This document shows, piece after piece, positions 13,277 through 37,940 of a stretch of 64,000 nt of DNA. This DNA is from Gemmata sp. Its GTDB lineage: Bacteria; Planctomycetota; Planctomycetia; Gemmatales; Gemmataceae. Each line of letters begins with the position of its first letter. Positions within the stretch are counted from its first letter, which is position 1. The stretch lies in NCBI GenBank assembly GCA_025055115.1, contig JANWYJ010000029.1, forward strand, positions 62,001-126,000, written 5' to 3'. A program made the position numbers and the translations under genes. Under the pieces are notes generated by a model. It did no database searches, was not told the origin of the DNA, and saw only the letters and a list, made by a program, of their open reading frames with translations.

Positions 13277-13343
13277 TGGGCCGTGCTGAGTAACCAGTGT
13301 GTGTCTGGCGGAATCCCTCGAAGGCGCAACCCCCCGAAACACC

Positions 13344-15161: not shown

Positions 15162-15226
15162 CTGTGCCTCGGAACGCATCGGCGTGCTATGGCCAAGTCG
15201 CTAACTGTTGAGCCGAAACGACCACC

Positions 15227-17389
15227 ATGCAACCGAACCCACCATCCCCGGCCCCAGTTTCGCCGCCGGACCCGATCAGCGAATTCATCCGCCACCAGCG
15301 GCACAAAACAGCCTACGTTCTGTTGGCTTTCTCCATTCTCTTTCTGGCCCTGTGCGCCTGGGGGGTGGTGAAAGCCGCCGGCAGTGCCCCACCGGCCGCG
15401 GCGACCGACAGCGAAAAGACCAGCAACGATCCGTTTGCCCTCGATGAGAGCACCACCGCCGCGGTCAAAGACCCGGCGCGGAATGATTACCGCGTCGCGG
15501 CGATTGCCGCAGGCGCCTGCTGCTTGGTGTTGGTCGGCGCGGCTTTCTGGTTGCTGGCGAGCCTGCCGCCAGAAAGCGAAGCGCAACAGCGGGCGCAAGC
15601 ACGCGCCCTGGTTTTGGGCATCGGCGGACTCATCGGCGCGGTGCTGATTCTGGCCGGGATTGCCTTTTTGTACCGCTGGAGCGATTCTCTGAGCGACTGG
15701 CTCGACAAAGGGAAAACCAAGGAAGCCAAATGGGTCCTGTTGCCACTGTTGATGATCGTGGTCGGCAGCGGGCTGATGTTTCTGGCCAGTTTTCCGGCCC
15801 GAGCGGAAGAGCGTAACAACCCCCTGCTACGGCGGCTGGTCTACAGCGCCAACTTCGGCCTGACACTGTTGCTGCTGTTTGTGGCTCTGGTGGTGGTCAA
15901 TATCTTCTTGGGGCCGAAATTGCCCAACAAACTCGACACCACCGCCGAGAATTTCTACTCCCTATCCACCGGGAGCAAAGAGTTCCTCGCCCGACTCGAC
16001 CAACCCGTCATCGCCTACGCCATCTTGCCGGAGGTCAGCCACCGGCTCTACGACGACATCCGCCGCTTGCTCGAAAATTGTGCCGACAACAGCAATGGCC
16101 AATTCACCTATAAGCCTCTCAGCCCTTCGGGGAACAAGAACGAATATCTGGCCTTAACGAAAAAATACCCGGTGCTGGAAGTGAGCGACTATGGGGTGCT
16201 GTTGGTTGTCGGTGCCGATGAAAAACGGCATGTCTTCATCCGCGACGACGAATTCTTCGAAGGCAGCTCATTTGCCCCGCGTGGCGAGCAGCCATCGCGC
16301 ACGTTCGTGGGTGAAGCCCGGCTCATGAAAGAACTGTTGTTCCTGGCGGAAAGCGAGGCCAAAGCGGTGGTGTACTTCACGCAATCGGCCGGGGAACTCA
16401 ATATCGATCCGCCCCCGGGCGAAGAGCTGAAGCCCTCGGCCACGGCCAACCGGCTGCGCTTGTTCCTGGAACGCAGTAACCTGGCCGTCAAACCACTGAA
16501 GTTTGATCCGGTCACCCCCAAGGTGCCCGACGATGCCGCGGTGGTGGTGGTGGCCGAACCGGTGTCCACCCTCGCCGAACAGCATGTGGAAGCCATTCGC
16601 CGATACATGACCGAACCCCGAGGCACCAAGAAAGGCAAACTGATCGTTCTGGCCGGACCCCAATTTGAACCCACCGGCGAAGTGCGGAAAACGGGTTTGG
16701 AAGGGTTGCTGTTGGAGTTCAATATTCGGCTGGGTGCGCAACTGATCCTGGGTGTTGAGACGCGGGAAGGCCTGGACATTCTCAGCCATGTGATCGGGTT
16801 TGCCGAAAGCGCCCGGCGCGCCCGCAACCCAGTGGCGATGGGCCTGGGCGAGAAGACGGCCTTTGTCACGCCGCTGTGGCGGCCGGTGGCACCGGTGCGC
16901 GACGGCGGGCCGGCGTATCGGGCCGTCACCCTGCTGATCACCGAGCCAGGGCGGTACAGCTGGCTTGAAGACCGCCGCCCCACCGAATTCCGCGCCGCCA
17001 AATACTTCGAGGAATTCCGCAAAGACCCCGCTTTGTTACGCGCCAAACAGCTCACGGACGAAGCCCGACCCGTGGGTGTGGCCGCCTCGGAAGGGGAATC
17101 GGGCCGCGTGGTCGTCATCGGCAATGGCTTGATGATCAGCGATATCTACGCCCAACAATCGCGCGATGGCGTCGATCCCATCACCTTCGACCTGATGGGA
17201 GCGACGATCGATTGGCTCCGCGATCGACCACCGGTTACCTTCAATATCGAGGCCAAGAAGTACAAATCCTTCAGCCTGCCAGCCAGCGCGGATGAAACCC
17301 GCGGGCTATGGTTCCCGCTGCTGTTTGGTCTGGTGGTGGTGGTGGGTTTGGGTGCGAGCGTGTGGATCGTTCGCCGCCGCGCGGCGTAA
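15227..17389 (+). CDS. GldG-like ABC transporter auxiliary protein
   Basis: A 720-residue membrane protein. Five or so hydrophobic segments lie in residues 28-230, followed by a large periplasmic domain of the Gldg family: LDTTAENFYSLSTGSKEFLA, LARLDQPVIAYAILPE, VLEVSDYGVLLVVGADE and VVVVAEPVSTLAEQHVEAIR. A last transmembrane helix closes the protein (FPLLFGLVVVVGLGASVWIV), followed by RRRAA. Family members partner with ABC-2 permeases, and the domain has a sugar-isomerase-like or Rossmann-like fold of unknown role. It lies between the permease and DUF4340 genes in one operon. Confidence 0.88.
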   Translation: MQPNPPSPAPVSPPDPISEFIRHQRHKTAYVLLAFSILFLALCAWGVVKAAGSAPPAAATDSEKTSNDPFALDESTTAAVKDPARNDYRVAAIAAGACCLVLVGAAFWLLASLPPESEAQQRAQARALVLGIGGLIGAVLILAGIAFLYRWSDSLSDWLDKGKTKEAKWVLLPLLMIVVGSGLMFLASFPARAEERNNPLLRRLVYSANFGLTLLLLFVALVVVNIFLGPKLPNKLDTTAENFYSLSTGSKEFLARLDQPVIAYAILPEVSHRLYDDIRRLLENCADNSNGQFTYKPLSPSGNKNEYLALTKKYPVLEVSDYGVLLVVGADEKRHVFIRDDEFFEGSSFAPRGEQPSRTFVGEARLMKELLFLAESEAKAVVYFTQSAGELNIDPPPGEELKPSATANRLRLFLERSNLAVKPLKFDPVTPKVPDDAAVVVVAEPVSTLAEQHVEAIRRYMTEPRGTKKGKLIVLAGPQFEPTGEVRKTGLEGLLLEFNIRLGAQLILGVETREGLDILSHVIGFAESARRARNPVAMGLGEKTAFVTPLWRPVAPVRDGGPAYRAVTLLITEPGRYSWLEDRRPTEFRAAKYFEEFRKDPALLRAKQLTDEARPVGVAASEGESGRVVVIGNGLMISDIYAQQSRDGVDPITFDLMGATIDWLRDRPPVTFNIEAKKYKSFSLPASADETRGLWFPLLFGLVVVVGLGASVWIVRRRAA

Positions 17390-17471
17390 ACCGGGCCTGT
17401 GAGCCTTTGTGCATCCCATCGTCCACGGCGGAATGAAGCGCCGCCGAGGTTATTGTTCGGAGCGTTCGTAC

Positions 17472-19985
17472 ATGAACTTCCGTCAGACTGCGTTGTTGCT
17501 GGGGGGAGTGTTTGTCGTTGTCGTCGCCCTGTTGGTGGTCAGCTTCGTCAGCGAGGATGAGTCGCTCGCCACCAGCGGACTTCTCGCGGAAGAATTGGCC
17601 AGAGTGAAGGCCGATGACATCGACTCCCTGGAGATCGAACGAACCACCGGCGGCCGGCTGAAAATCGAGCGCATCGACGCCAACACCAAAACGTGGCAGA
17701 TCGTGGAGCCGTACCGGGCAGCGGCCGATAGCCAACTGGTGACCGCAGCCATCAACGCCATTCTGCAAGCCAAACCCACCTCCTACACCGGCTCCACGGC
17801 GCTGGCCGCCCGCGGGCTAGAACCGCCCAATATGAAGGTCACACTCCGCAAAGGGTCCGAAAAATCATCCACCATCAACTTCGGTGACGTGGAGTTGGGC
17901 GAGCGCGGCAATGTGTTCGTTACAACCTCGGCTCGGCCGGATCGACCACAGGCCGTGCCGCGCATGCAATTCGACGCTCTGTTTCGTGACAAACGTGGGC
18001 AAGGCAAAGCGGTCGATTTTGTGAAGTGGGCCGCCGATTTCCGCAGCAAATCGGTCTTCCCCGCGGATAGTCGTGCCTTTGGGGAAGATGTCAGTGCACT
18101 GAGGTTGGCCCTGCCGCAGCAGAAACTCGAAGTGGCCCTGTCACGAACGGCCTCGGGCGATTGGCAGTTCGACCTGCCGGCAGGATGGGGCGCCGCCGAC
18201 CCGCAAGGCGACGTGGGCACAGCCCTGGAAACCTTCAACGGGGTTTCGCCGCTGGTGCGGACACTCACCAATATGGCCGCCGCCTCGGCCAACGACTTTC
18301 TCGACAATCCGGGCGATCTCAAACAGTACGGCCTGGAACCGGAGAACCCCGACCGCATCCGGGTGGAGATGCGCACCAAAGACGGCCAATCGGCCACGGT
18401 CTTCATCGGCAAGGCCGACGTGCCTCCCAAAACCGATGACAAATCGCCACCGCCTACCACCAGCGATAAGGTGTTCGTCATGATCGAGGGGCAGCCAGGG
18501 GTCATCCGCGCTACCGGCCGCGATGTCCACCGGCTGAAAGCTGTCATCAAAGACCCCAGCCCACTGCGCGACCGCAACCTGATGACCCTCGATCCGCGGA
18601 AAACCATCGACGGCCTCGACCTTCAACTGGCCGGCCAGGCCACTCCCACAAAACTGCGCCGCATCGGCACCGAATGGAAACTCTACGGCGGACCCAACGA
18701 TCCTCAACCCGCCCGGACATCGGTTGTGGAAGGGATACTGGATGTGATCAAAGCGCCGCGGATCGTCCGCGACTTCACCACCGCCAACGACGCCAATTTC
18801 ACGCCGCCGACCGCAACGGTGTGGGTGTACATCAATGGTTTTGAGACCCCAACCGACACCAAAGCCGAACCGACCAAAAAAGCCGAACCGATCAAGCTCG
18901 AATTCGGCCGCAAGGAAGGCGATAGCATCCATGTGCGCCGTACGCTGCCCACCGGGCAAGTGAACACCTACACCATCGCCGCGATGGTCACGCCCAGCGC
19001 CGCGTCTGCCTCAGTCGATGCCCTGGCCAGCGTGATGAAGTCGCGGCTCGATCTGCTCGATCCGGCGTTGCCATCGTTCACCGCCACCGCCGCGACCAAA
19101 TTGACCGTCACTGGGACAAACCCGGCCAATAACTACACCCTCGAAAAAGACCCCACCGACACTCCCCCGACGCAAGAACGCTTCTGGCGCTTCGTGGCCC
19201 CTGAACCCAAAGGCCGCATCGCCGATACAAAATCGGTCAACAAGATTCTCGATCAGCTCAGTACACTCAACTCGACGGTGCGTTGGCTGGAGGAAGACCC
19301 CAAGCCGGAGCGGCTTGCGGAACTGGGTTTCACGCCCCAGCCAGTTTTGAAAGTGGTTGTCGGGTTACCCAATAACGAAGAACGAACCTTTGAATTCGGC
19401 AAAGAAACGCCGGACGCGGCATCGGTTTATCTCCGCGTGGGGGGCAAAGCGGCTCTGTTCACGGTCCCGCGCCTGGTCTTCACCGACGTTTCCACGCCCG
19501 ACCTGCGCGACCGCCGCATCTTCCGCGGCCTGCCCACCACCGAGGCGACCCGGGTCGAACTCCGCGGATGGGTGGGGTTGATCGGCCCCAAACCAATTCG
19601 CGTGGCCCTCGAGAAGAACAAAGACGGGGCTTGGGTGATCGCGCCGCCTCAACCCGGTGAACCACCAAGCGTTCTGACCGACCTGACCCCCGACACCGCG
19701 AAAATCAATACCCTGTTGCGGCAAATCTCCGAGATCGAAGCCAAGACGTTTGAAACTGGTCCGCCCCAGGAAAAACACGGCTTTGCCGAACCGGCCCAAT
19801 TCCTCGAAATCAAAGTTTGGGGTGCGAAAGGGCAATTCATCTGGCTGAACATCGGCGCCAGCTTCGACAACGGCAAAAGCGCTTACGTTCTGACCAATGC
19901 CCTCCCCGAAGCCAACCCCGTGCTGACCATCGATCCGCTGCCGTTCAATATCTACAAGGAGAAACCCAGCTCCATCGGCAAATGA
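17472..19985 (+). CDS. DUF4340-domain protein
   Basis: An 837-residue protein from the ATG at 17472 (MNFRQTALLLGGVFVVVVAL), one N-terminal anchor and a long extracytoplasmic part. DUF4340 traits: IDSLEIERTTGGRLKIERID, WQIVEPYRAAADSQLV, TYTGSTALAARGLEPPNMKV-like blocks repeated three to four times along the protein (again around LGLEPENPDRIRVEM and LAELGFTPQPVLKVVV). DUF4340 proteins are regularly encoded after GldG/permease genes, so it is probably the accessory or substrate-binding part of the exporter. The first 21 codons of the longer frame were rejected because the signal anchor starts at 17472. Confidence 0.88.
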   Translation: MNFRQTALLLGGVFVVVVALLVVSFVSEDESLATSGLLAEELARVKADDIDSLEIERTTGGRLKIERIDANTKTWQIVEPYRAAADSQLVTAAINAILQAKPTSYTGSTALAARGLEPPNMKVTLRKGSEKSSTINFGDVELGERGNVFVTTSARPDRPQAVPRMQFDALFRDKRGQGKAVDFVKWAADFRSKSVFPADSRAFGEDVSALRLALPQQKLEVALSRTASGDWQFDLPAGWGAADPQGDVGTALETFNGVSPLVRTLTNMAAASANDFLDNPGDLKQYGLEPENPDRIRVEMRTKDGQSATVFIGKADVPPKTDDKSPPPTTSDKVFVMIEGQPGVIRATGRDVHRLKAVIKDPSPLRDRNLMTLDPRKTIDGLDLQLAGQATPTKLRRIGTEWKLYGGPNDPQPARTSVVEGILDVIKAPRIVRDFTTANDANFTPPTATVWVYINGFETPTDTKAEPTKKAEPIKLEFGRKEGDSIHVRRTLPTGQVNTYTIAAMVTPSAASASVDALASVMKSRLDLLDPALPSFTATAATKLTVTGTNPANNYTLEKDPTDTPPTQERFWRFVAPEPKGRIADTKSVNKILDQLSTLNSTVRWLEEDPKPERLAELGFTPQPVLKVVVGLPNNEERTFEFGKETPDAASVYLRVGGKAALFTVPRLVFTDVSTPDLRDRRIFRGLPTTEATRVELRGWVGLIGPKPIRVALEKNKDGAWVIAPPQPGEPPSVLTDLTPDTAKINTLLRQISEIEAKTFETGPPQEKHGFAEPAQFLEIKVWGAKGQFIWLNIGASFDNGKSAYVLTNALPEANPVLTIDPLPFNIYKEKPSSIGK

Positions 19986-20280: not shown

Positions 20281-22410
20281 TCACCGAGGGCCGGGGGGAG
20301 CGTACTTTTTCAACCACGCGAACACCTCCTTGTGCCAATGTTCGCTGTTTTTCGGCTTCAACACCCAGTGCCCTTCATCGGGGAAGTTGACAAACCGGCT
20401 GGGAACACCCTGCCGTTGCAGGGCGCTGAACAGTTCGTGCCCTTGCCCGATCGGGCAGCGGAAATCGAGGTCGTTGTGAATGATGAGCATGGGCGTTTTG
20501 TGTTTGCCCAATTCGCCGGCACGTTTGTGCGGGCTGAACTCGGCATACTTGTGGGGTTTCTCCCACGGTAGCCCGCCGTGTTCCCATTCGTCGAACCACA
20601 GTTCATCGGTCGTGCCCCACATACTCTCGAAATTCCACACCGAGCAGTGGGTAATCAGGCAGCGGAAACGTGGGGCGATGTCGTTGACGGCGAACCAATT
20701 CATCATGTAGCCGCCGAAGCTGGCGCCGGCCGCGGCGAAGCGGTCTTTGTCCGCATACGGTAGCTTGGCGACGTAATCCAGTCCGCGCACCAAATCGCGG
20801 TAGCATTTTCCGCCCCAGTCGCCGGTGATTTCGTCGGTGAATTTCTGGCCAAAGCCCACACTGCCCCGCGGATTGGGCAACACCACAACATACCCTTGGG
20901 CAGCCCACAGTTGCGGGTTCCAGCGGAAGCTCCAATTGTCGCCCCAAACGCTCTGTGGCCCGCCGTGAACCAGATACGCCACCGGCCATTTCTTCGTCGC
21001 ATCAAATCCGGGGGGCTTGAGAATCCACATATGCATCTGGACATCGCCTTCCACCGGCACTTCGACCGCCTGCGGTGCGGGTAAGTCGAGTTGTTCGAGT
21101 CGTTTCTCGTTGGCCCGGCTGATATTGAGGGGTTTGGCTTGATCCGCCGGCCACCAGTGGACATGCACTTCCGCTGGGTGTGTCATCCGCGCTACGGTAT
21201 AGGCGAGCATGTTGCGTTTGGCGGATGCGGACAGGGAACTGCAAGTGCCGCGATCAAACTGAATGTCGAAACCTTGGCCGTCGATTTGGATGAAGAAAAT
21301 GGGATCGACGGCATTCCAGTGCGCAGTGAAAAGAAAGGCCCGGTCGGACCCCCCAGTCCAGACAAATTCGTTGACGGAGACATCGTATTTGGCCGTGACA
21401 GGGAAGGGTTTTCCGGTGAGTTTGCCATCCGGTTGGCAATCCGCCACGACGATATCCCATTTATCCGCTTCGTAGCCAGCTTGTTTCTGGGCACGCCAGG
21501 CCAACTTCTGGCCATTGGCGGCAAAGCGTGGCCCGCTGTCTGCGGCTTTGTTATCCACTGTCAACGTTTCCCATGTCGTTGAGGTGTTGTGAATGCTGAC
21601 GCGGCAGAGGTCGTAGTTGGTACTCCAGGCTTCGTTCTTCTCGGGCACGGCGGTGAAGACCAGATGTTGGCTATCGGGCGTGAAGGTGAAGTCGTCGCCG
21701 CTGCTGAAGGTGCTGCTGGTGGGGTGGGCGTCGCGGTCGCCAGGGGTGACATCGCGGCAGTTGCGGCCATCAGCATCGATCACAAACAGATGGCGTCGTT
21801 TGTCGCCCACGTATTCGTCCCAATGGCGAAAGAACAGTCTCGTGAAAGTTCGGGCTTTCACCGGGCTATTGGCGATGGCGTCCTCTTTTTGTTGGTTGAG
21901 TTTATCGCTTTCCGCGAAGGGCTTTTCGCTGAATTCGGGATAGACGCTCGAAACAAAGGCAATGCGTTTTCCATCGGGCGACCAGATGCCGTGGCTGGCA
22001 CCGGTGGAGATGTTGGTCAGTTGTTTTACCTGGCCATCAGCGGTCAGAATCCACAGCTGCATTGACCCGGAACGATTCGATTCGAAGAGAATGCGTTCGC
22101 CATCGGGCGACCAGCGCGGGTTGGCATCGCGTTGGCCTTGGGGATCGGTCAATTGTTTGGGAGGCGTCTTGCCGTCGGTGGAGGCGAGCCACAGCGCGGT
22201 GGATGTGCGGTTACGGTCCAGATCGACCGTGGTGACTTGATAGACCACCGATTTGCCATCGGGGCTGATTTGCGGCGCGGCGACGCGCTGGAAGGCAAAC
22301 AGGTCTTCCAGCTGCATCGGTCGCTTGTCGGCGGCGAGGAGGGGTTGGCATGGGCGGCCCGTCCCCCCCAAAGCGATGCCTGCGACGATGAGAATGAAAT
22401 ACTTGCGCAT
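20281..22410 (-). CDS. S9-family prolyl-oligopeptidase-like serine peptidase
   Basis: Exported dipeptidyl/acylaminoacyl-peptidase-like enzyme of 709 residues from the ATG at 22410. Signal peptide in residues 1-27, then a WD40-like beta-propeller with repeated SPDGK/SPDGE motifs (QISPDGKSVVYQVT, RWSPDGERILFESN, WSPDGKRIAFVSSV). The alpha/beta-hydrolase domain follows: AYLVHGGPQSVWGD, nucleophile elbow GASFGGYMMNW, acid NDLDFRCPIGQGHE and His in FPDEGHWVLKP. All three catalytic residues are present. It probably trims oligopeptides in the periplasm. It follows the giant protein genes on the same strand after 118 bp. Confidence 0.93.
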   Translation of the reverse strand: MRKYFILIVAGIALGGTGRPCQPLLAADKRPMQLEDLFAFQRVAAPQISPDGKSVVYQVTTVDLDRNRTSTALWLASTDGKTPPKQLTDPQGQRDANPRWSPDGERILFESNRSGSMQLWILTADGQVKQLTNISTGASHGIWSPDGKRIAFVSSVYPEFSEKPFAESDKLNQQKEDAIANSPVKARTFTRLFFRHWDEYVGDKRRHLFVIDADGRNCRDVTPGDRDAHPTSSTFSSGDDFTFTPDSQHLVFTAVPEKNEAWSTNYDLCRVSIHNTSTTWETLTVDNKAADSGPRFAANGQKLAWRAQKQAGYEADKWDIVVADCQPDGKLTGKPFPVTAKYDVSVNEFVWTGGSDRAFLFTAHWNAVDPIFFIQIDGQGFDIQFDRGTCSSLSASAKRNMLAYTVARMTHPAEVHVHWWPADQAKPLNISRANEKRLEQLDLPAPQAVEVPVEGDVQMHMWILKPPGFDATKKWPVAYLVHGGPQSVWGDNWSFRWNPQLWAAQGYVVVLPNPRGSVGFGQKFTDEITGDWGGKCYRDLVRGLDYVAKLPYADKDRFAAAGASFGGYMMNWFAVNDIAPRFRCLITHCSVWNFESMWGTTDELWFDEWEHGGLPWEKPHKYAEFSPHKRAGELGKHKTPMLIIHNDLDFRCPIGQGHELFSALQRQGVPSRFVNFPDEGHWVLKPKNSEHWHKEVFAWLKKYAPPGPR

Positions 22411-22528
22411 GGTGGATGCCTTTCGATTGCCACGGCTTGGAATCCAGCTGGCTGTGCCAGCGGCCGTCATTCCCCCACGTTGTAGGCACGGCCGGGGGTG
22501 GGAGAAAGAACCCCCCGATGACCAGGCC

Positions 22529-25500
22529 TCAGCGACGCGGGGGGGTGAGTTTCAGCCGGACATCGAGGGTGTTGGCGCTGGTGGTCAGAAACTGCCACAC
22601 ACCTGCACGCAGCGCGGAGGTTTGCCAACCGCGATCACGTTCGATGGCCGCCAGCCAGCCGGGCATCACTTGCACGCGAACTTCTTCGCTCGTGGGGCGA
22701 CTGCCGGCCAGGCGGGGCCGAACGGCCTCAAAGGTGATTGTGTCCGGGGGGGCTTTACCCGCGGAAGCGGGACTGATCGTGCCGCGCCATTCCACAGTTC
22801 CTTCCCGCGCACTCGTCCGCAGCCAGACTTGCACCCGCGAACCCGATTGATGCCAACCGACGACCTCGCTGCCGCGGACCTCGAACAATCGCACCCCCGG
22901 CAACGTCCATTCCAGAAGTAATTGTGGTTCTTTGGCGCTCCAGGTGATCGTGCCGGCGGCATCGGCCCGATGGGGGCTAACCTGCCATGCTGTGCTCGTC
23001 TGAACGGCCAACCCTTCACCCACACGCAGCGAGGGGCGAAGCTCCGCACCAGACCCAGTGGGGCGAAAGACCCGCGGCAGCGGCTGCCCTTCCAACCGCA
23101 AATCGGGCACATTGACAAAATCGCGCCATGCCTCCGCCGGGAAATCGCTGATTGCACTGCCGCCAAGGCTTTCGAGCGTCAGACGCGACGTCCGCAGCCC
23201 GTAAACCGATTCACTGGTGCCTTGGAGGTTCGTGAAGACAATGCGTGGAAACCGCAACACCGGCTGGCGGGAAATGGGCCGCCGCGGCACCGCTTGGAAA
23301 ACGACCATGAACCGCCCCGCCGTGGGATTTTGGAACTCGACCCGCAACACTGGCCAACGACCTTTAGTTTCCACCACCGACCAATCACGCAAGGCCAGCC
23401 ACGCCGCGGCTAAATCCAGATTGCGAGCGCTGACGCGGACCACTTCCAAGTCCGGCGGAATTTCCAAGACAAGACCAGGCACTGTGCCCTGCTCGACGCG
23501 GATCAAGTAGGCCGCGGTCAGTTCGGCCCCGGATTCGCTCACATCCCACACGCACGCTTCACGGACCCGCAACTCGGCTACTCCCGACGCCCCTTCGCGC
23601 CAACGAAGATGAACTGCTTTGGCTCCACCTAAATCCGCCGTCAACCGGCTGCGCGCGTCCGTCGCCACAATTTGCCGGCCCCAGCGGCCCACAATCTGCG
23701 GCTGCCGAGCATCCTTGGCCAGGGCGGCCACCACCCGGCTTCGCGGTACCTCGGGGATGCCGAAACGAACTTCTCGCTCCGAACCAGTCGTGACCAGGGA
23801 TGTAGCAAAACGGCATTCGATTTCATGCCGACCCGGGCCCGGCAGCGCAATGGTGTAGCTATCGGGGCGGTTCGATGTCGGAAATGCCACCCGACCATTG
23901 ACCGTCACACGTTCCAAACGAACATCACTCAGGGGGATCGTGACCATGTTTTCCTGAGCCGCAAAGGCCTGGACGATCCATTGGGCCGTCACAGTGGCGA
24001 CAGCGTCCTGCGTTTGAATGGCATATTCGGCGGCCGTAATGACCGGGGCGGGAGAGGCGGCTTGCGTGAAGCTCGCCAACCGTTCGAGAACAGCACGCGG
24101 TGCGAAAACGTCCTCGGTTCCCCCCTCCTGCGTGACGATCCAGACCGTGGCCGTGGCCGGATTTTGCGCGTTGACCGACCATGTGGCCCAGACCACCAGC
24201 AGGACCGCAGCCATCGTTGCTGTGGCGACCCTGTGGTCACGCTGACGTTGTATGATCCAGGCGACCGCCGCCACGCTCACAAACACCACCGCGGCGACCA
24301 ACGGCAGACCCGCGACCTTGGCCCACCACGGTGGGCCAAGGTGGTACACCCCCCCTGCGACTCCGGCGATTCCGGCCAAAAGAAGCATATCGCCAAGACG
24401 CCGCCGCCGAAGAGTCTGCAACCCCCCCAGCACCAGCCCCGTCGTGAGAAGTACGGCCAACGCGGCCGCGGCACGGGTGGTGCCCACCCGAATCCCCAGG
24501 TCGTCGGCCTGGGTCACTAACACAATCGCTTCGCCACTGGTTAGTGGGCCTCCCAACAGGGGTGGTTCCTCCACTGTCGCATCCCACGGCCGCGCCGGCC
24601 AACCGGGGAGCAATCCTGAAGCAAATGTCCACCATCGTTGGACGGGCACGTCAGCCCCGTTCACACGCGGCGCGGGACTGACAATAGCCCGCGTCGGCCA
24701 AGCCGCCGATACCGGCAGACGATAGCGAACTTCAAAACGAACGTTCGTTCCCGTGGGCAGCGGTATCCGCAGGCTCTCGGGTGCTTGCCGCTCCATACAC
24801 GCCGCCGGGTTCAACCACCGGCCCATCACATTGATGCTGCGTAACTGAACCCCCGGTGGCAAAGTCAGTGCCAGAGGTGAACCGGTCGAATGGGGGATCG
24901 TTCCGCCCATTGCGACCATGACATCATCGACCGCACGAACCACCGTCACCAGGTACGCCTCTTGCACCACCGGGGGCGTGGTTGTTGGCAAAAGCGGCGT
25001 GATCTGGAGGCTGTCGCCGAGCATTTCAACCGCCACGTGTTTCTCCCACGGTGGCGCCACTTCAACCCGTACCGGAGCTTGCACCCCCAGCAGGCGGGCC
25101 AGTGGTAACCTCATCGGGGTAGTTCCAATCGGCGGACCCAACGCGAGCGTCTCAATTTCCGCCATGGTGGCCAGTGGACGATCGAACTGCAATACCCACA
25201 GGGAACCTGGCCATCGTGGCCCTCCCGGAAGAAGGGAAAACACTTCGCCTGGCAGTTGCAGAGCCTGGCTGATGGCGTTTCCTTCGCCCACCAACCGCCA
25301 CGTTCGTGGTCCGTCGTGGGGCGGAGCAAAGACTGCCACGGCAGCCAACGCGCCGCCACTGATGCGCAGCAGCCAGCGCGTGGTTACTGTCCAACGATCC
25401 TCGATCGTATGCAAACGCACGGCCGCCTGCGCGGTGAACGTTGGGTTCGCCAGCCGCAATATCACCTGGCCTTCTGGTTCTTTCCCGCGGTAGTAATAAA

Positions 25501-27286
25501 CCGCTTGCGCATCGCGGGGGATGTCTGTGGTTAGTCCACTCCACCAACCGACAGGTTCGGCCCCAACCCCCGGTTGCAACGTCGCCAGCCATCGCGGTAC
25601 CGTTCGGAGGCTGAACCAACCTTCCCGGTCGGCGGCACCTAGCCCCAGCGCCGGAAATAACCCCACCCCCGGTTGCAGCGCAGGTCCGCGAAACTCCAGG
25701 TGTAGTTGCAACTGCTGCCCACTGACCAAAGGGGGAACGAATTCCACCATTTGGGTGCCCCCTGTTGGCGGACCGACGTAAGAAACCCGCTCATGAATAG
25801 CAACAGGCTTGCGATCGAGGACATAACCAGGGGGCGGGCGCAGGGCGAGCTGAAACAGCGGCCCTCGCCGTACGCGCACATCCACCCGCGCTGTCAGTGT
25901 GGCATGCGTTTCCCCCAGGGCCCAATCGATACGTTCGGTGGTGGCAATCTCCGCTTCCATCGGGCTAAGACGAAACGATGGCAGGCGGCGAAACGGTTCA
26001 TTGGCCCCCGGGGCCAAGAGCGTTCCTTCTAACGTCAAAACCCGTGCCGTCTCGCCTCCACCCAGCGGCAATGACGGCACGGCCGAACCACCACTCAGGC
26101 GGTAATCACCCGCATTCCAGGCTTCGATCTTCCAACCGCTGGCAATCCGCAGCTCCAGCGTTTCTTCGCCGACAATAGCTGCCAATGGACGAACCGATGG
26201 CAACGGGGCATCCGCCGAACGGCTTGGATCAGGAAAGACGCCAAAGGCCGAGATCACCACCAGCCCGCCGGGTCCCGGTTGGCGCAAACGGATGCGGACG
26301 CGCCGCGGACCATCGGCAGTGGCCGGCGGATCGACCGTCCAGGCGGCCCGATTGTTCATGACCACATCAGTGATGTGCAAACCAGGATCAGCCAGAAAAG
26401 ACCATTCGTCCACAGGGCCGCGTGTCGGCATTAACTCGTAGCGGAACGTGGCCGTCAGTTGTCCGGCGGAAAAGTCGTATTGTGCCGCCAATTTCGCTTG
26501 CGCCAGGGCATCCGACGCCCCCCGACGACGGAGCGAAAGTTCCACCTTCGCCGAACTCCCAGGCCGCAGTTGCCACAACCGCCGCTCGGGTTGACCCGGC
26601 ACCGGGAAAGGACCGGTGAGCAGTGTCTCGGAAGCTGCGGGAATTTGATCCGCCGGTAAGTTCAACCGCCACACAGAAGTGGTGCATGGGGGAACTCGTA
26701 GCTCGAAGCGCCGTTCGCCCAATTCCGTGGTTCCGGTCAGTGACCAGGTCAATTGCAAGGTCCGACGCCCTGGGCGTGGGAGCCACACGGCAGGGGCTGC
26801 AGCCCCTGCCGGAATCGCCACAATCGCCTCGTCGCCATCCGCCCACCGGGCACTCTGGATCGCCAAGCGGAACGGTTCCAGAGAGGTCCATGCCGGCCCA
26901 GGTCGTGAATTGAGCAATTGCAGTTCGGCTGTCCCGAACAGTTCTTGACCATCGAATTCGGCAGTGTAAACCGCTTCGATGAGGCGCGGGGGTTGCTTCG
27001 CCAACTCAGCCGCTTCGGCAGCGGCACGAACCCGGGTTTCAAACTCGCTTCGAGGCAGTTGCACCCACGGTCCGGCATCCAATTCGTTTTTCAGCTCGGG
27101 CCAAAGCCCAGCGGGCACACGCAGCCGGCGAATCGGGAACGGATCGGCGACTGATAGCGTCGCCGGGGTGGTGGCCGCGCGAGTATCGGGCCACGGCATC
27201 GGCGGCGAGCTTCTCCCGACGGTCGCGGTGATCGCCCCACCGGCCCCCATCAGGATGACGAGAACGAAACCACGGTATCGATACAT
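22529..27286 (-). CDS. Giant secreted/membrane protein with duplicated module
   Basis: A 1585-residue protein from the ATG at 27286; N-terminal signal sequence (FVLVILMGAGGAITATV). A beta-rich module at about residues 105-215 (AVYTAEFDGQELFGTAEL, then a PGRRTLQL strand) is followed by a long beta-rich stretch. Four close hydrophobic helices lie at about 937-955, 963-979, 989-1010 and 1017-1035. Then a second copy of the module appears at about 1086-1200 (AAEYAIQTQDAVATVTAQWI, LPGPGRHEIECRF) with more beta structure to the end. No catalytic motif is recognised. The gene follows the related gene at 27432-30899, and the pair is probably co-transcribed. Two perfect palindromes lie inside it. I cannot name a family. 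Confidence 0.8.
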   Translation of the reverse strand: MYRYRGFVLVILMGAGGAITATVGRSSPPMPWPDTRAATTPATLSVADPFPIRRLRVPAGLWPELKNELDAGPWVQLPRSEFETRVRAAAEAAELAKQPPRLIEAVYTAEFDGQELFGTAELQLLNSRPGPAWTSLEPFRLAIQSARWADGDEAIVAIPAGAAAPAVWLPRPGRRTLQLTWSLTGTTELGERRFELRVPPCTTSVWRLNLPADQIPAASETLLTGPFPVPGQPERRLWQLRPGSSAKVELSLRRRGASDALAQAKLAAQYDFSAGQLTATFRYELMPTRGPVDEWSFLADPGLHITDVVMNNRAAWTVDPPATADGPRRVRIRLRQPGPGGLVVISAFGVFPDPSRSADAPLPSVRPLAAIVGEETLELRIASGWKIEAWNAGDYRLSGGSAVPSLPLGGGETARVLTLEGTLLAPGANEPFRRLPSFRLSPMEAEIATTERIDWALGETHATLTARVDVRVRRGPLFQLALRPPPGYVLDRKPVAIHERVSYVGPPTGGTQMVEFVPPLVSGQQLQLHLEFRGPALQPGVGLFPALGLGAADREGWFSLRTVPRWLATLQPGVGAEPVGWWSGLTTDIPRDAQAVYYYRGKEPEGQVILRLANPTFTAQAAVRLHTIEDRWTVTTRWLLRISGGALAAVAVFAPPHDGPRTWRLVGEGNAISQALQLPGEVFSLLPGGPRWPGSLWVLQFDRPLATMAEIETLALGPPIGTTPMRLPLARLLGVQAPVRVEVAPPWEKHVAVEMLGDSLQITPLLPTTTPPVVQEAYLVTVVRAVDDVMVAMGGTIPHSTGSPLALTLPPGVQLRSINVMGRWLNPAACMERQAPESLRIPLPTGTNVRFEVRYRLPVSAAWPTRAIVSPAPRVNGADVPVQRWWTFASGLLPGWPARPWDATVEEPPLLGGPLTSGEAIVLVTQADDLGIRVGTTRAAAALAVLLTTGLVLGGLQTLRRRRLGDMLLLAGIAGVAGGVYHLGPPWWAKVAGLPLVAAVVFVSVAAVAWIIQRQRDHRVATATMAAVLLVVWATWSVNAQNPATATVWIVTQEGGTEDVFAPRAVLERLASFTQAASPAPVITAAEYAIQTQDAVATVTAQWIVQAFAAQENMVTIPLSDVRLERVTVNGRVAFPTSNRPDSYTIALPGPGRHEIECRFATSLVTTGSEREVRFGIPEVPRSRVVAALAKDARQPQIVGRWGRQIVATDARSRLTADLGGAKAVHLRWREGASGVAELRVREACVWDVSESGAELTAAYLIRVEQGTVPGLVLEIPPDLEVVRVSARNLDLAAAWLALRDWSVVETKGRWPVLRVEFQNPTAGRFMVVFQAVPRRPISRQPVLRFPRIVFTNLQGTSESVYGLRTSRLTLESLGGSAISDFPAEAWRDFVNVPDLRLEGQPLPRVFRPTGSGAELRPSLRVGEGLAVQTSTAWQVSPHRADAAGTITWSAKEPQLLLEWTLPGVRLFEVRGSEVVGWHQSGSRVQVWLRTSAREGTVEWRGTISPASAGKAPPDTITFEAVRPRLAGSRPTSEEVRVQVMPGWLAAIERDRGWQTSALRAGVWQFLTTSANTLDVRLKLTPPRR
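24316..24341. repeat. Perfect 12-bp inverted repeat inside the giant gene
   Basis: CCTTGGCCCACC, two bases, then GGTGGGCCAAGG. It encodes the loop LGPPWWAK between two hydrophobic helices. It may be chance at a conserved loop or an inserted palindromic element. Confidence 0.8.
26789..26810. repeat. Perfect 22-bp palindrome inside the giant gene
   Basis: GGCAGGGGCTG and its exact complement CAGCCCCTGCC, with no loop. It encodes an Ala/Pro-rich patch (AGAAAPAV) and so could have been inserted in frame. Similar GC-rich palindromes occur at 39452-39474 and 43091-43119. Confidence 0.85.
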
Positions 27287-27431
27287 GCGGTCATCAATCA
27301 ACGAGAGTTCCAATTGTTCCGACTTCGATCTAATTGTTCCGACTTCGACTAGTCCACGTGCTACTTCACTTTGGGTTTATCGTTCCACGGGGAGTTTCCT
27401 GGCCCTTGGGTCGGCACGAGGGCGACCACGT

Positions 27432-30400
27432 TTATGTTCCTGAAGGTGTTGGTGCCGATGGGGCGGAACTTCCACTGGCCACGTTTCCATTGGTTCGGCT
27501 CGACGACCGCGACGGTCCAGGGGCGGGCGGCGCTAAACTGGCCGTGGATACTCCGGTCACGACACTGGGTTCCATTGGCACCCGGCTGAAGCTGGGTAGA
27601 TACAAAATGCGGCGGCGGGCGTGCCAACGGACGAGGGCCTGGATCACCACGGCCACAAGCCCTCCCCCCACTCCGGGTTGTCCCGCGGCCAGAAGCTGCG
27701 CTGCGGATTGCGGATACAAGACCGCGCCCAATCCCAACGCCCCACTCACCAGCGTGATGACCCATGCGGTCACCCGAAGCGGACACCATGTCAGCACCAG
27801 AATCATGACCGCGACGACGAGCGAACCAACGACCATCAACCCCAGCCACGGTAGCCGGACCACCCGCACGCTTTCTGGTGTGGCTTGCCGGATGGCGAGC
27901 ATCTCACCCTCTGTGCCATCGGCGCTGTCGTCGAAGCCGGGTTCGGTTCCTGTCAGAAACCATTGTTCGAGTGCCGCGCGCGACGCGGCGGTGGGAGCGC
28001 AACTGATCCCGCGCAGGCGCCAGAGAATCTCCGATTGGCCACGATCGCTGACGACCAAGGGAGCGGAATCGTGCGGTTCGGTGATCAGCCAACGAACCGG
28101 TCCTACATAGGCGGCGAATACCAGTTCTAACGGTTCGTAGCGGGTTTCACCGAGGGTTCGGCGTGAGCCCGGAGTGGCATAGGTGATTTCCAGAATGCGG
28201 CTGCGGCTGGAGCTATCCGGTAGATTCAGGCGATACCGCGGCCGCTTGGTTGTTTCGTCGATGCCCGCGGGGATTAAGCCGGCGACCAAGCCATCGATGC
28301 GCGCGGTCGGATGGGCGACAGTGCGTTCGGGCAAGAGGATTTCGAGTGTCGGCACCAGGGCCAGCATCAGTCGGAAACGGGCGCGATAGTGGATTGAGCC
28401 GTCGTCAGCCCCCGCGGCTTCGAGAAGGGTGCGTTCGACGCGGACGGTCGCAACGGCCCCAGCGTTGACTTGGCGTACTTCTAAGGCCAATGGTTGTTCG
28501 GCCGACGCGCTGAGGGTTAGGGCAGGGAGCATCTCCCGTTCTGGATTCGCTTCGGGCGGCCATTCGCGCCATCCTGGTGAGACGGCGGTCACCGTGCGGC
28601 CGGTGAGGGTGTGCACCCACACGCGCACGGTCGTTTCGATCCGCGTCGCATCGAGGGGCCAAAACATTCCCACCGGGATGGTGAAGGGGCCATCAGTTTG
28701 TGCAGGCAATGGTAAGGCGAAACTGAGGCGGAGTGTGGTTTCTTTACTGTCGAGCGGGGGTTGATAGCTCCCTGTTCCGGCGGATGCTGTTTCCCAGGTG
28801 GGGGTGGTTTTCAGCCCGATTGTCTCGGGGGGGCCACGGAAGCGCACCGGTTTGGGGAAACCGTCGGGCGAGCGGAGTTTCAACACTTGGGCAATCACCA
28901 TTTGCCGTTCGCCGAGCGTCACGTCGGTGCGTATCTCAGCGCTGATGTCGGGGCGATAGAGTTGCCAAGCGAGCCAGACGCGCGCGACCCCCAGGGGGCT
29001 TTGGGCGGTGATCGTGGTTGGCACTTTGGGCATTTTGCCGTCGGGGGCCGCTGGCGGGGCCAGTGGCGCACTCCAGGCCGTTGCTTCGTCGCCATCCCCG
29101 CTGCGGATTTTGCCGCGAACTTCCCATCCCTCTGGCACACTGGCCGTTACGGTGGTATTGCGTTCAACGACTTTGCTGAATCGGGCTAACAGAAGGTTCA
29201 CTTCGCGTGTCGTCGGCGGAAGCGGTAAAGTGGCGACAAGGACGATCTCAAACGGTTTCGTCATGCCTTTGGCCAGCCGCACCGTGACCGGTCGCCACAG
29301 ACCGTCGCTGGGGCCTTGGGTAACTCCTGCGACAATCAGCGGGTCTGATTCCGACTCCAAGCCGCGCCATTCGGCCGGCACCTCCACGACCAGAGATTCG
29401 ACTTCTGTACGGATCGGCCGCACGGCGATTTCGGCATGAATCAGCCACCCCGCTTCAGTGAGCTTGAGTTTGTAAGACGGTGTGACGCGAATGGTTCCGT
29501 CGACGGGGTAGGCCTCGACGATCAGCCATGGCGTCATGGTTGCGGTGGAACCGGTCGGACCGGTGGCCAACCGGAAGAAAGCAACGCTGTTGTCTTCATC
29601 GGCCGGCAGTGGTGGTTCAGTGCGGCGAAGGTCCGGACCGTGTTTGAACACGAAGCGGGTGTGGGGAGCCGCCATGACTTTGATTGTTCCGCTTTGGCGC
29701 AGAACATCCAGAACAGCAAATGGTCCGACGGCAACCGCAGGTGATTTCGCAGCGGCTTTCGGACGAGCCTGGCGAACGACCAGTGTCACCGTCCAATCCC
29801 CGACCGTTGAACCGGTGGGCAGCTCGACTTTCCAAACCGGTTTGGCGGCGTCGGTCGGTTTGGTGACAATCGGCTGGTAGGTGGGGCCGGTTTCGATCGG
29901 CGCGGTGGCAGCACGATCGACGCTCACATCGGCGTTGGCCGGGGCCACCAATCTCCAGACCAGCGCAGGTCCGCGGAGCTTCACCTTGGCGGTCGATTCG
30001 ACAAAATTGTCGGTCAGGATGGTCGTGACGTCCCATTCGGCGCTTTGGATCGGATCGACGGTGGGTGAACCGGCGGCCTCCCACGTCACTTCCACCGCTT
30101 CAACGGCACCCAGAGGAAAGCCGGCGGATTTGTCGCTGGCGGCTAACTGTTGGATGTCCAAGCCGTTGAAGCGTCGGGTTTCGGGGAGTTTCAGGGGCAG
30201 CGTGGGGTCGGGCGTTCGGGTCACGACATTCACCCGTTTGACGTTGGCCGCGGGAGGGTCCAGGGCCAGTGTGGTGATGGGTGCTCGCGGCAAGGCTAGA
30301 TCGAAACCCACTTCGGCTTTGGTTCCCCGGACGGTCACCGGCACTTCGACATCGAGAACCAGCGTATGTTCGCCCGGAGATTCGACCGTGACGACGAAGC

Positions 30401-30899
30401 CCTCGTCGGCCGTTTCCAGAACTGGTAGTTTGGTGCCATTGAGGGCTGCTGCGACCAGGAAAGCGCGGCGGGCACCGAGGCTGACGGCGCTGTTGGGTTG
30501 AGTTGTCCGGAACGCATAGGTGAGTTTCAAGGCCCCCACGAGTTGCTCGCCACGTTTCTCGATCCGGCCGCGAATGGCGCAACTGCTGGGGGGCCGGGGC
30601 TTACGGGCCGCGAGTTCTTTCTTGAGGGTGTCGATTTGATCCAGCAGCTTCTGAAATTCCTGCGGGCTGAGCGTGACCCGCTCGCCGTTGGAAGGATGGC
30701 CCAGCCAGAGCTGCGTTCCGTCGGGCAGTTTCACTACCAGTGGCTGGCCGTCCTTGGCGTCTTTGGACGGTTCGCTTTTGGGCGGCTCGGCGGGTTTGAA
30801 CCGTTCACCTGCTCCTGGTTGCGCGGCCAGACTAACCGTTCCTACCACAAGGAGCGTTAAGGCCATGACGCTGCTGGCGGAACGACGATCCCACGACAT
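27432..30899 (-). CDS. Giant secreted/membrane protein related to its neighbour
   Basis: A 1155-residue protein from the ATG at 30899 (MSWDRRSASSVMALTLL). A signal sequence ends near AAQPG. A charged Lys/Glu/Pro-rich stretch and a short coiled coil (FQKLLDQIDTLKKELAAR) precede the module shared with the neighbouring giant (about residues 106-220: CAIRGRIEKRGEQLVGALKL, ESPGEHTLVLDVEV, LPRAPITTLAL). Long beta-rich stretches follow. Near the C-terminus are three hydrophobic helices (about 1016-1037, 1043-1062, 1076-1090), then a Ser/Pro/Ala tail. It resembles the first half of the 1585-residue neighbour in order of parts. Probably an envelope protein; function unknown. Confidence 0.8.
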   Translation of the reverse strand: MSWDRRSASSVMALTLLVVGTVSLAAQPGAGERFKPAEPPKSEPSKDAKDGQPLVVKLPDGTQLWLGHPSNGERVTLSPQEFQKLLDQIDTLKKELAARKPRPPSSCAIRGRIEKRGEQLVGALKLTYAFRTTQPNSAVSLGARRAFLVAAALNGTKLPVLETADEGFVVTVESPGEHTLVLDVEVPVTVRGTKAEVGFDLALPRAPITTLALDPPAANVKRVNVVTRTPDPTLPLKLPETRRFNGLDIQQLAASDKSAGFPLGAVEAVEVTWEAAGSPTVDPIQSAEWDVTTILTDNFVESTAKVKLRGPALVWRLVAPANADVSVDRAATAPIETGPTYQPIVTKPTDAAKPVWKVELPTGSTVGDWTVTLVVRQARPKAAAKSPAVAVGPFAVLDVLRQSGTIKVMAAPHTRFVFKHGPDLRRTEPPLPADEDNSVAFFRLATGPTGSTATMTPWLIVEAYPVDGTIRVTPSYKLKLTEAGWLIHAEIAVRPIRTEVESLVVEVPAEWRGLESESDPLIVAGVTQGPSDGLWRPVTVRLAKGMTKPFEIVLVATLPLPPTTREVNLLLARFSKVVERNTTVTASVPEGWEVRGKIRSGDGDEATAWSAPLAPPAAPDGKMPKVPTTITAQSPLGVARVWLAWQLYRPDISAEIRTDVTLGERQMVIAQVLKLRSPDGFPKPVRFRGPPETIGLKTTPTWETASAGTGSYQPPLDSKETTLRLSFALPLPAQTDGPFTIPVGMFWPLDATRIETTVRVWVHTLTGRTVTAVSPGWREWPPEANPEREMLPALTLSASAEQPLALEVRQVNAGAVATVRVERTLLEAAGADDGSIHYRARFRLMLALVPTLEILLPERTVAHPTARIDGLVAGLIPAGIDETTKRPRYRLNLPDSSSRSRILEITYATPGSRRTLGETRYEPLELVFAAYVGPVRWLITEPHDSAPLVVSDRGQSEILWRLRGISCAPTAASRAALEQWFLTGTEPGFDDSADGTEGEMLAIRQATPESVRVVRLPWLGLMVVGSLVVAVMILVLTWCPLRVTAWVITLVSGALGLGAVLYPQSAAQLLAAGQPGVGGGLVAVVIQALVRWHARRRILYLPSFSRVPMEPSVVTGVSTASLAPPAPGPSRSSSRTNGNVASGSSAPSAPTPSGT

Positions 30900-31014
30900 C
30901 GGCACACAACTCGCAGCAGGCGGGCGACTTCCCGGGTTCCCGCCAAGGGCCGCAACCGATCCGACCGTTGCTGTCTGCGAGGATACCCGAGATTTCCTTC
31001 TTCGCTCAGTATAC

Positions 31015-32631
31015 CTAAACCTTGCCGTCGTTTGCGCTGGTCGATTCGGAATTCCTCGTCGTGTGCGTTCGGTCTATCCCATCCCCTCGTCTCAACCGGT
31101 ACACCAGGAGGCCCCCCACAGCCGCGGTCAGTAGCAGAAACGCCAGAGTATGAGTGCCGTAGACCAAGGCCAGATCCGCCCGGCGGCCGCCGAGCAAACC
31201 CGGCACGGTCATCAGAACAAAGGTCAGCGCGACAGTACCGATTAGCAAACGACGCCCCCATCGCGGCAGTTCCACCTGCGCGATGGCATAGGTCAACACG
31301 GCCATTGGGATCAACAGGACCACAGCATGATGTTTCCACGTTCGCTCGCTGAAAAGCAGCATACCCAGACAGATGAAGCCCCATTCTGCGGCCAACGGCC
31401 AGCCGGCACGAAGATCGCTCGGACGATGGATCGGCCAGCGGCAAAGCCCGATGACGGCGAGGGCAAACGTGGCCGTGAGGGCTTTGACGACGATCCAGGC
31501 ATTGCGATGCCCAATGTCGAAGAGGTTATGGTACTCCGCGGGTGTGGGAATGTTCTGAGGATAGATGAGGTACGACGGGCTGTGTGTGAACAACCGGTAC
31601 ACAAAACCCACAAGCGCCTGATTGGCGTGTTCACTGGTGATTTCCCCCTTCAGCAGTGGCCGCTCGATCATCAGCGCGTACCAGCTTGTCAGCAGTTCGC
31701 GATTCCGTTCCCAACCGAAGGTGAAGCCGGGGACCACGACCAGCCACAAGACCAGCCCCGCCAGGGTCGCACCCACGACGCGCCAGCAACGTTTCCAACC
31801 GAAATAGGCCAGAAACAACAGGGGCGTCACTTTGCAGGCAATCGCCAAAGCGAGCACCAGCCCGGCGAGCGTATCGCGACGACGGCGGAAGGCTTCGAGA
31901 CTCCCAACCACCAGAAAGAGGATAAAGATATTCACATTGTTATGCGATAAATCCCCCAAAAGCGGTGGCAGGCACAGAGCGATTGCCGCTGCCCGGGCCA
32001 AATCTCGCCGCGTGGTGTCCGCCACGATCGGGGCGAGGTGGTGCGAAGCTGGGGACGTGGCGGACCACGTTCCTGAAGAGCCGCGCCGACCTTGGCTCGG
32101 TCCCATGGGGGCCTCAGTTCTAGCGTGGTCTTCAGTTCTAGCGTGGTCCTCAGCTCTGGCGTAGTCCTCATCAGCTCCAGTGTGGTCCTCAGCTGCTGCA
32201 ACTGAGGTCGAAGGTGGCCCCCCGACCCGGGGCCAAGGGAATTCCACTGCGCGAAACACCCAAACGGCGGCCAGTACCGCCATCAGAACCTTCGCATAAA
32301 ACCAACTCATCGCGCCGATTGCGGGTGGCAGTGCGGCTAGCGGCTTCAGTATGAAGGCCATGATCGGCGGATTGGGATATTCATTCACACCGACATAAAT
32401 ATTCTCCCCCGCAAACAGGCCGTTGATCATGTCGCGCCAGCGAAGGAATGCCGAGCGGGTTTGCTGTCCAGTATCACCCGGCTTGTGGATTTTGGCTGCG
32501 TATTTGATGCTGGTGACCAGCACGATCACAGCCAAAACCGCGACCAGCGCACCACGCCAGCGCTGCGGATGGGCCTGATACCGAGTGACCGCACGAAAGG
32601 TGAATTCTTTGACCAACGCCCACCGTTGCAC
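31015..32631 (-). CDS. GT87 (DUF2029) lipid-linked sugar transferase-like protein
   Basis: A polytopic membrane protein of 538 residues. GTG start at 32631 chosen because AAGGAGG lies 8 nt upstream. GT87/DUF2029 features: loop after the first span with FLRWRDMINGLFAGENIYVG and NEYPNPPIMAFILKPLAALP, DLSHNNVNIFILFLVVGSLE, and LALAIACKVTPLLFLAYFGWKR; about ten spans in all. Relatives are polyprenyl-phosphate-mannose-dependent mannosyltransferases, which would fit manA nearby (inference). Residues ~150-185 are an odd, hydrophilic Glu/Asp/His/Arg repeat (EDHTGADEDYARAEDHART...) that no relative should need; at DNA level it is a degenerate minisatellite. Confidence 0.85.
   Translation of the reverse strand: MQRWALVKEFTFRAVTRYQAHPQRWRGALVAVLAVIVLVTSIKYAAKIHKPGDTGQQTRSAFLRWRDMINGLFAGENIYVGVNEYPNPPIMAFILKPLAALPPAIGAMSWFYAKVLMAVLAAVWVFRAVEFPWPRVGGPPSTSVAAAEDHTGADEDYARAEDHARTEDHARTEAPMGPSQGRRGSSGTWSATSPASHHLAPIVADTTRRDLARAAAIALCLPPLLGDLSHNNVNIFILFLVVGSLEAFRRRRDTLAGLVLALAIACKVTPLLFLAYFGWKRCWRVVGATLAGLVLWLVVVPGFTFGWERNRELLTSWYALMIERPLLKGEITSEHANQALVGFVYRLFTHSPSYLIYPQNIPTPAEYHNLFDIGHRNAWIVVKALTATFALAVIGLCRWPIHRPSDLRAGWPLAAEWGFICLGMLLFSERTWKHHAVVLLIPMAVLTYAIAQVELPRWGRRLLIGTVALTFVLMTVPGLLGGRRADLALVYGTHTLAFLLLTAAVGGLLVYRLRRGDGIDRTHTTRNSESTSANDGKV
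32100..32203. repeat. Degenerate in-frame minisatellite in the GT87 gene
   Basis: Units resembling TCAGTTCTAGCGTGGTCC or TCAGCTCTGGCGTAGTCC recur four to five times with about an 18-bp period, so the frame is kept. They encode the Glu-Asp-His-x-Arg-x repeats in a cytoplasmic or periplasmic loop. Confidence 0.7.
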
Positions 32632-32713
32632 GATAACGCCTCCTTGCAAGAACGGCAGAAAATCATGGCCGAGGACGCCTTGGGGGTCAATGCGAAGCGG
32701 TGGAGCAATAGCC

Positions 32714-37935: not shown

Positions 37936-37940
37936 TTACT
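37823..37940. repeat. Duplicated 3' flank of the SOD gene
   Basis: GGATGATGGCTGGTT...TGGCCGG.ATTTCCAC..GG.TTAC occurs at 37823-37863 and again at 37890-37939. The second copy runs into the stop codon of the SOD gene (TTA at 37936-37938); the first has the corresponding TTAC without the gene. Confidence 0.75.

Follow-up and report, generated by a model that had tools for sequence, protein, structure and literature searches.

The window considered here, a 64,000-nucleotide stretch of a Gemmata sp. genome (contig JANWYJ010000029.1, positions 62,001 to 126,000), carries on its minus strand two adjacent genes for very large proteins, designated B and A. A sequence-only reading of the same DNA had singled these out as neighbours of 1155 and 1585 residues sharing a beta-rich module, and both open reading frames are indeed present. 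The nearest named record to B is the B protein of an uncultured Gemmata sp., which is 76% identical. In the features listed below, a unit is a repeating element of about 1,000 residues, and residues are numbered from the TTG and GTG starts of the reading frames, so that a count from the ATG codons is lower by 9 for A and by 2 for B.

27432-30905, minus strand: protein B (unit 1), 1157 codons from GTG, or 1155 residues from the ATG at 30899
30813-30899, minus strand: N-terminal signal sequence of B (..GTVSLAAQ), from hydropathy, with a helix at residues 11-27 in the model
30096-30593, minus strand: B residues 105-270, first beta-sandwich domain, containing the module of the sequence-only reading (motif residues 177-186), from profile comparison, model and motif scan
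27876-30593, minus strand: B residues 105-1010, string of beta-sandwich domains with internal repeats, from the AlphaFold2 model and profile comparison
27603-27848, minus strand: B residues 1020-1101, three-helix membrane bundle, from hydropathy and the AlphaFold2 model
22529-27313, minus strand: protein A (unit 2 and a truncated unit 3), 1594 codons from TTG, or 1585 residues from the ATG at 27286
24494-27148, minus strand: A residues 56-940, exported part of unit 2, homologous to B from 51 to about 1010, from hhalign with controls
24173-24475, minus strand: A residues 947-1047, membrane block of three helices homologous to the B bundle and a fourth helix, from profile comparison and hydropathy
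24161-24229, minus strand: A residues 1029-1051, the fourth helix, which resembles an internal signal sequence fused ahead of unit 3 and has an A-x-A-type site, from split-gene forms at loci L143 and L147
22532-24148, minus strand: A residues 1056-1594, truncated unit 3, from hhalign (E about 1e-18) and AlphaFold2

The two proteins are homologous to each other over nearly their whole length. In profile-profile comparison with hhalign, using order-wide profiles of A and B built from 50 and 49 sequences, respectively (order, class and phylum here and below being taken as those to which Gemmata belongs, in Planctomycetota), the alignment of A 56-1024 with B 51-1099 has an E-value of 1.5e-32, and A 1056-1558 aligns both with A 59-586 and with B 64-599, each at about 1e-18; the best E-value among reversed and block-shuffled controls was 0.005, over 33 columns only. 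The same comparisons reveal internal repeats within both proteins, with an offset of about 185 residues in A. A strand bearing the motif PG-x-[HRK] lies at B 177 and A 181 and recurs at A 1160, past the membrane block, and the family as a whole has 62 occurrences of the motif, most of them within residues 150-199 of B-size proteins, compared with 11.7 for shuffled sequence. The shared module is therefore real, and so is its recurrence in the larger protein after the membrane block; the sequence-only reading understated the similarity. What does not survive is the picture of a separate block of about 110 residues to which the likeness is confined: the module is part of one of several beta-sandwich domains in each unit of about 1,000 residues.

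Outside the clade of the window, A is about 2,400 residues long in most genera and comprises two full units; of the phylum-wide loci, most give two matches of a class-wide B profile in A, usually with each below 1e-30. The halves of A are separate genes in L143 (1,419 and 1,470 residues) and in L147 (1,237 and 1,138 residues). As B is homologous to each half, and the halves stand apart in two lineages, the operon encodes three tandem units, unit 1 in B and units 2 and 3 in A; it is near certain that this is the architecture, and that each unit consists of a signal sequence, a short helix, a string of beta-sandwich domains and a three-helix membrane bundle. Hydropathy profiles across the family show a signal sequence and three C-terminal helices in B, after which the window's B has a tail rich in Arg that bears the conserved motif L-P-[GS]-F-x-R, and, in A, a signal sequence, unit 2, three helices, a fourth helix, unit 3, and two to three further helices.

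The block of four membrane helices described by the sequence-only reading is thus upheld by hydropathy, but its fourth member looks like the signal sequence of the next unit. We read it in this way because an A-x-A-type site follows it in the window's A (..WATWSVNAQ-NPATA) and because the split-gene forms begin there, the helix coinciding with the signal sequence of the separate unit 3. Of 65 proteins, 27 have an A-x-A site close to this helix, compared with 18% of random stretches, an excess that is a weak sign of internal cleavage since hydrophobic segments are alanine-rich. Unit 3 of the window's A ends at about half length, without the second half and final membrane bundle present in other genera, while some close relatives retain a C-terminal membrane segment. 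The missing half was not found elsewhere in the genome with a single-sequence query from a distant genus, which makes for a weak negative, and no convincing further copies of A or B were seen there. At locus L159 (genome G443), a deep relative has two neighbouring proteins of 1525 and 1276 residues that match the unit profile in several partial, overlapping stretches, which may reflect an earlier or a rearranged order of the domain repeats.

The family is widespread in the class and extends into deeper branches of the phylum. Single-sequence queries found A in 81 and B in 71 of 102 genomes of the order, and the class-wide profile found the family in 133 of 149 class genomes (127 of the 143 of good quality) and in 57 of 149 genomes of a phylum sample, eight of them in the class; outside the class it is present in about 49 of 141 sampled genomes. 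A genomic search for co-occurring pairs, which the sequence-only reading had proposed, shows A and B to be co-conserved: in the fetched loci that have both, they lie side by side on the same strand, frequently with a 4-base overlap. The few loci that look single in the neighbour scan do so because the gene picker dropped overlapping reading frames, and B was shown to be present in L141, L142, L144 and L150. Some genomes of one taxonomic family, such as G272 and G108, hold two operons. In one genome of the window's genus (G026:C1:5598835-5607222), the B and A matches are split into several frames with internal stops, reflecting either a decaying locus or sequencing errors. In the window itself, the gap between B and A contains two tandem 20-bp copies (TCCAATTGTTCCGACTTCGA, 95% identical) at 27309-27348, which overlap the upstream TTG start of A and are a possible regulatory site or repeat remnant.

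No family had been recognised by the sequence-only reading, and the libraries agree: single-sequence searches of Pfam and NCBIfam gave no match above curated cut-offs for A or B, a sequence search of the Protein Data Bank (PDB) with A returned nothing, and a Pfam scan of 28 class-wide members yielded weak, scattered matches only, the best being TgpA_N at 4.7e-5 in one member. Neither VIT nor VWA domains were matched by Pfam within A or B, nor were the models of alpha-2-macroglobulin and complement proteins (macroglobulin ring, thioester or bait region), and plasmid records held no match to the family. A search of the open literature, outside which many subscription papers lie, found nothing on the pair. 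Nothing named in the libraries or open literature searched corresponds to the protein family, its three-unit architecture or its operon; the domain fold, on the other hand, is known.

This fold became apparent from structure prediction. The AlphaFold2 model of B (mean predicted local distance difference test score 81.5, predicted template-modelling score 0.40) comprises the signal helix, a helix at 81-100, beta strands from 105 to about 1010, and helices at 1020-1040, 1043-1063 and 1065-1101, and that of A 1056-1594 (89.4 and 0.51, respectively) is nearly all beta. When the PDB was searched with Foldseek, the top match of the whole-B model was ribophorin I/Ost1 (8b6l_O, E 4.8e-8, probability 1.00), followed by integrin and complement strings and then by M1 aminopeptidase N-terminal domains. 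The C-terminal model of A, a different segment predicted from a different alignment, again met Ost1 first (8b6l_O, E 4.1e-11), with 426 columns aligned to the 428-residue Ost1 chain 6s7t_E, and thereafter integrins, M1 N-terminal domains (up to 20% identity over about 190 residues) and the inter-alpha-inhibitor heavy chain ITIH1 (6fpz). Both models accordingly match the tandem luminal beta-sandwich domains of the Ost1 type over about 430 columns at a probability of 1.00, and the repeated domain matches, also at 1.00, the N-terminal beta-saddle domain of many M1 enzymes (LTA4H, ERAP1, PepN) over about 190-200 residues. The predicted fold of A and B is thus of a known type, the M1-aminopeptidase N-terminal/ribophorin I beta-sandwich. 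The sequence-only reading had allowed that structure prediction might return a known domain with an ordinary function; this came true only by half, for the fold and not for the architecture or function.

Several known systems resemble A and B in this fold or in parts of it. Like A and B, Ost1 (PF04597) has two consecutive beta-sandwich domains of the same type on the exported face and a membrane anchor; A and B differ in having many more such domains per unit, three units and three-helix bundles, in showing no cytosolic helical ribosome-binding domain, and in that no significant sequence similarity to Ost1 was established. Unlike the M1 aminopeptidases, they possess no catalytic domain, and a motif scan finds neither HExxH nor GxMEN in either protein. 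In contrast to inter-alpha-inhibitor and the bacterial VIT-VWA proteins, they contain no VIT or VWA domain, although a VIT-VWA protein resembling an anti-sigma factor is a divergent neighbour of the units in one locus (L160, below). The strings of integrin alpha ectodomains and of complement C3-C5 are matched by Foldseek only loosely over their whole length (root-mean-square deviation, rmsd, above 20 Å) and in a generic Ig-type manner, with no propeller, MIDAS or thioester recognised in A or B. Matches in a viral structure library, to generic Ig-string proteins and a viral M1 aminopeptidase, were uninformative.

The neighbourhood of the pair offers no universal partner: none was found among 47 loci scanned within the class. 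The genes flanking the pair in the window are as follows.

31015-32649, minus strand: GT87 glycosyltransferase, 109 bp upstream of B
20281-22470, minus strand: S9 prolyl-oligopeptidase family protein, downstream neighbour, recurring near some family loci in the window's order

The gene directly upstream of B encodes a GT87 protein in only 5 of the 47 loci, all of Gemmata type, and an inositol monophosphatase in 9, and neither was used as a functional argument; the S9 peptidase was likewise set aside as a partner, the neighbour not being general. Outside the class, a regulatory linkage appears. In L148, L151, L153 and L154, an extracytoplasmic function (ECF) sigma factor gene, a gene for a VWA/YfbK-domain protein and the units follow one another in one direction, with gaps of -4 to +95 bases, the VWA/YfbK protein having an anti-sigma-like N-terminus in L148, L151 and L154. 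In L160 (10415-16538), an ECF sigma gene and then a gene for a 1855-residue zf-HC2/VIT/VWA protein are divergent from the units. In those branches, the neighbours connect the system with envelope signalling, whether it is the target or the sensor. Below its cut-off, the marine sortase-target model also matches the 1855-residue protein.

Conservation in B peaks at positions that are mostly W, G, P, F, Y or L (W275, G406, W779, Y909), along with one histidine, H180, in the PG-x-[HRK] motif. As these residues are mainly structural, and the HExxH and GxMEN motifs are absent, the pattern of conservation would point to binding or scaffolding rather than catalysis. The reading we tentatively favour, with somewhat less than even confidence, is that A and B form an exported, membrane-anchored, non-enzymatic beta-sandwich scaffold, made of three copies of one unit of about 1,000 residues, that organises the cell envelope. 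Each unit would be exported through its own signal sequence, that of unit 3 being the fourth helix of the middle membrane block in the fused A, and would be held by its C-terminal three-helix bundle while presenting its long string of M1 N-terminal/ribophorin I-type beta-sandwiches outside the cytoplasm, presumably on the periplasmic face in a diderm cell. B and A probably constitute one complex, whose beta-sandwich faces may bind other exported proteins or glycans and thereby organise the envelope. Given the adjacent ECF sigma and anti-sigma-VWA pair in the deep branches, the complex would probably be switched by, or report on, the state of the envelope. The sequence-only reading had likewise proposed an envelope system, and the signal sequences, beta-rich exported part and membrane helices are consistent with it. 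The repeats, the architecture and fold, the adjacency of the genes, their distribution and the regulatory neighbours are observations, whereas the joining of B and A, the face on which they lie, the binding of partners and the organising of the envelope are inferences.

Several points weigh against this reading. The sigma/VWA linkage is confined to loci outside the window's class, 5 of the 20 phylum-wide ones, and Gemmata lacks it. The family is missing from 16 of the 143 good class genomes and from most sampled genomes outside the class, and absence from some good genomes implies that not every genome requires it. Which side of the membrane the strings would face is deduced from the signal sequences only. 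Finally, the Foldseek superpositions are loose over several domains (rmsd of 12-20 Å and template-modelling scores of 0.25-0.32; 0.24-0.32 for the matches to Ost1; for the A model, 0.21-0.32 and 12-23 Å over two domains), so that the structural claim is one of the same kind of domain in tandem and not of the same rigid structure.

Among other explanations is a bacterial functional analogue of ribophorin I/Ost1, in which the units would sit beside the Sec translocon and hold new exported proteins for glycosylation or quality control. In its favour, two different segments, modelled separately, both find their best solved-structure match in Ost1, which binds glycosylated peptides and has a pair of similar luminal beta domains beside its membrane anchor (PMC7226087). 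With alignment A3, the class-wide B profile placed ribophorin I fourth among 177,635 PDB sequences (E 1.1), and hhalign against human and yeast Ost1, whose sequences were confirmed against PDB chains, gave a score of 29.0 against a shuffle maximum of 23.6, outscoring 30 of 30 shuffles in a consistent register (P 0.011). The hhalign probability was nevertheless a non-significant 3.7%, the result being obtained with this one of four alignments, and the PDB match was not reproduced with A2, A4 or A5; the Pfam model Ribophorin_I found nothing over cut-off in 40 genomes, including the window's own, and nothing among the 28 class-wide members by hmmscan. A and B were therefore not filed as ribophorin I homologues, the sequence tests not establishing homology. 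The GT87 gene upstream of B in Gemmata loci would suit a glycosylation role, but this linkage is confined to the Gemmata group, no oligosaccharyltransferase is found among the neighbours, and the ribosome-binding helical domain of Ost1 is not seen. We regard such an analogue as very unlikely. A slimmer chance still is given to the proposal that the system is an ancient bacterial relative of Ost1, a three-unit exported machine that would keep exported proteins at the membrane so that they can be modified, would be synthesised in part as a polyprotein containing an internal signal sequence, and would be switched by the ECF sigma/VWA anti-sigma pair. Ost1 has been reported in eukaryotes and in TACK and Asgard archaea, not in bacteria (PMC11417166, PMC10307638), and an earlier search found no promising prokaryotic candidates for the non-catalytic oligosaccharyltransferase subunits (PMC4973528).

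That the strings of Ig-like domains act instead as a surface adhesin or appendage, attaching cells or building a structure such as the crateriform pits, is unlikely in our estimate: it would accord with the integrin alpha matches, with the VWA and VIT-VWA partners of deep branches, which are typical of adhesion and ligand-binding systems, and with the wide distribution in the class, but the integrin matches are generic for Ig strings, and the units carry multi-helix bundles of the kind usual for anchors in the inner membrane, with no outer-membrane barrel, sortase or PEP-CTERM anchor seen; nor did the literature yield a composition of crateriform structures for comparison. The gene order of the four collinear loci and of divergent L160 would also fit giant exported parts that detect damage to the envelope and pass the signal on by way of the VWA anti-sigma protein; it fits equally well if A and B are target genes of the sigma factor, and since the linkage is seen in 5 of 20 phylum-wide loci and in none of the class loci examined, sensing cannot be the general role; we regard this explanation as quite unlikely. 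It is extremely improbable that A and B are degenerate peptidases, or protease-linked inhibitors, derived from M1 aminopeptidases. The M1 N-terminal domain matches, including 19-20% identity to a Deinococcus M1 peptidase, and the S9 gene downstream in the window invite that idea, but only the non-catalytic N-terminal fold is held in common, the peptidase neighbour is not general, and the missing catalytic motifs largely refute it.

Elsewhere in the window, genes for ABC2-membrane, ABC_transp_aux (GldG-like) and DUF4340 proteins stand in a row on the plus strand (13299-19985), a gliding-type ATP-binding cassette (ABC) arrangement. The GIFT domain of GldG also occurs in the oligosaccharyltransferase subunit Wbp1/OST48 (PMC7226087); the proximity of these genes to an Ost1-like fold is probably a coincidence, with no conserved linkage seen. 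A tRNA-Ala(agc) at 10632-10724 (plus strand) and a tRNA-Pro(ggg) at 37908-38001 (minus strand) were predicted, each of an unusual 93-94 bases and overlapping long open reading frames, and both are probably false predictions.

Planctomycetes have an unusual cell envelope, with budding division without FtsZ, an enlarged periplasm and surface pits. That a pair of proteins of 1,100 and 2,400 residues, kept together across most of a class and in deep branches beyond it, should be without a family name represents a large gap in our knowledge of this envelope. A study of essential genes in Planctopirus counts 108 phylum-specific unknowns among them (PMC10632474). The Ost1-type fold bears on the origin of the non-catalytic oligosaccharyltransferase subunits, and, if the reading as an Ost1 relative were true, the system would give bacteria a counterpart of a subunit whose reported range is so far limited to eukaryotes and TACK/Asgard archaea. 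Concrete, testable predictions for this family follow from the three-unit model and from the ECF/VWA linkage.

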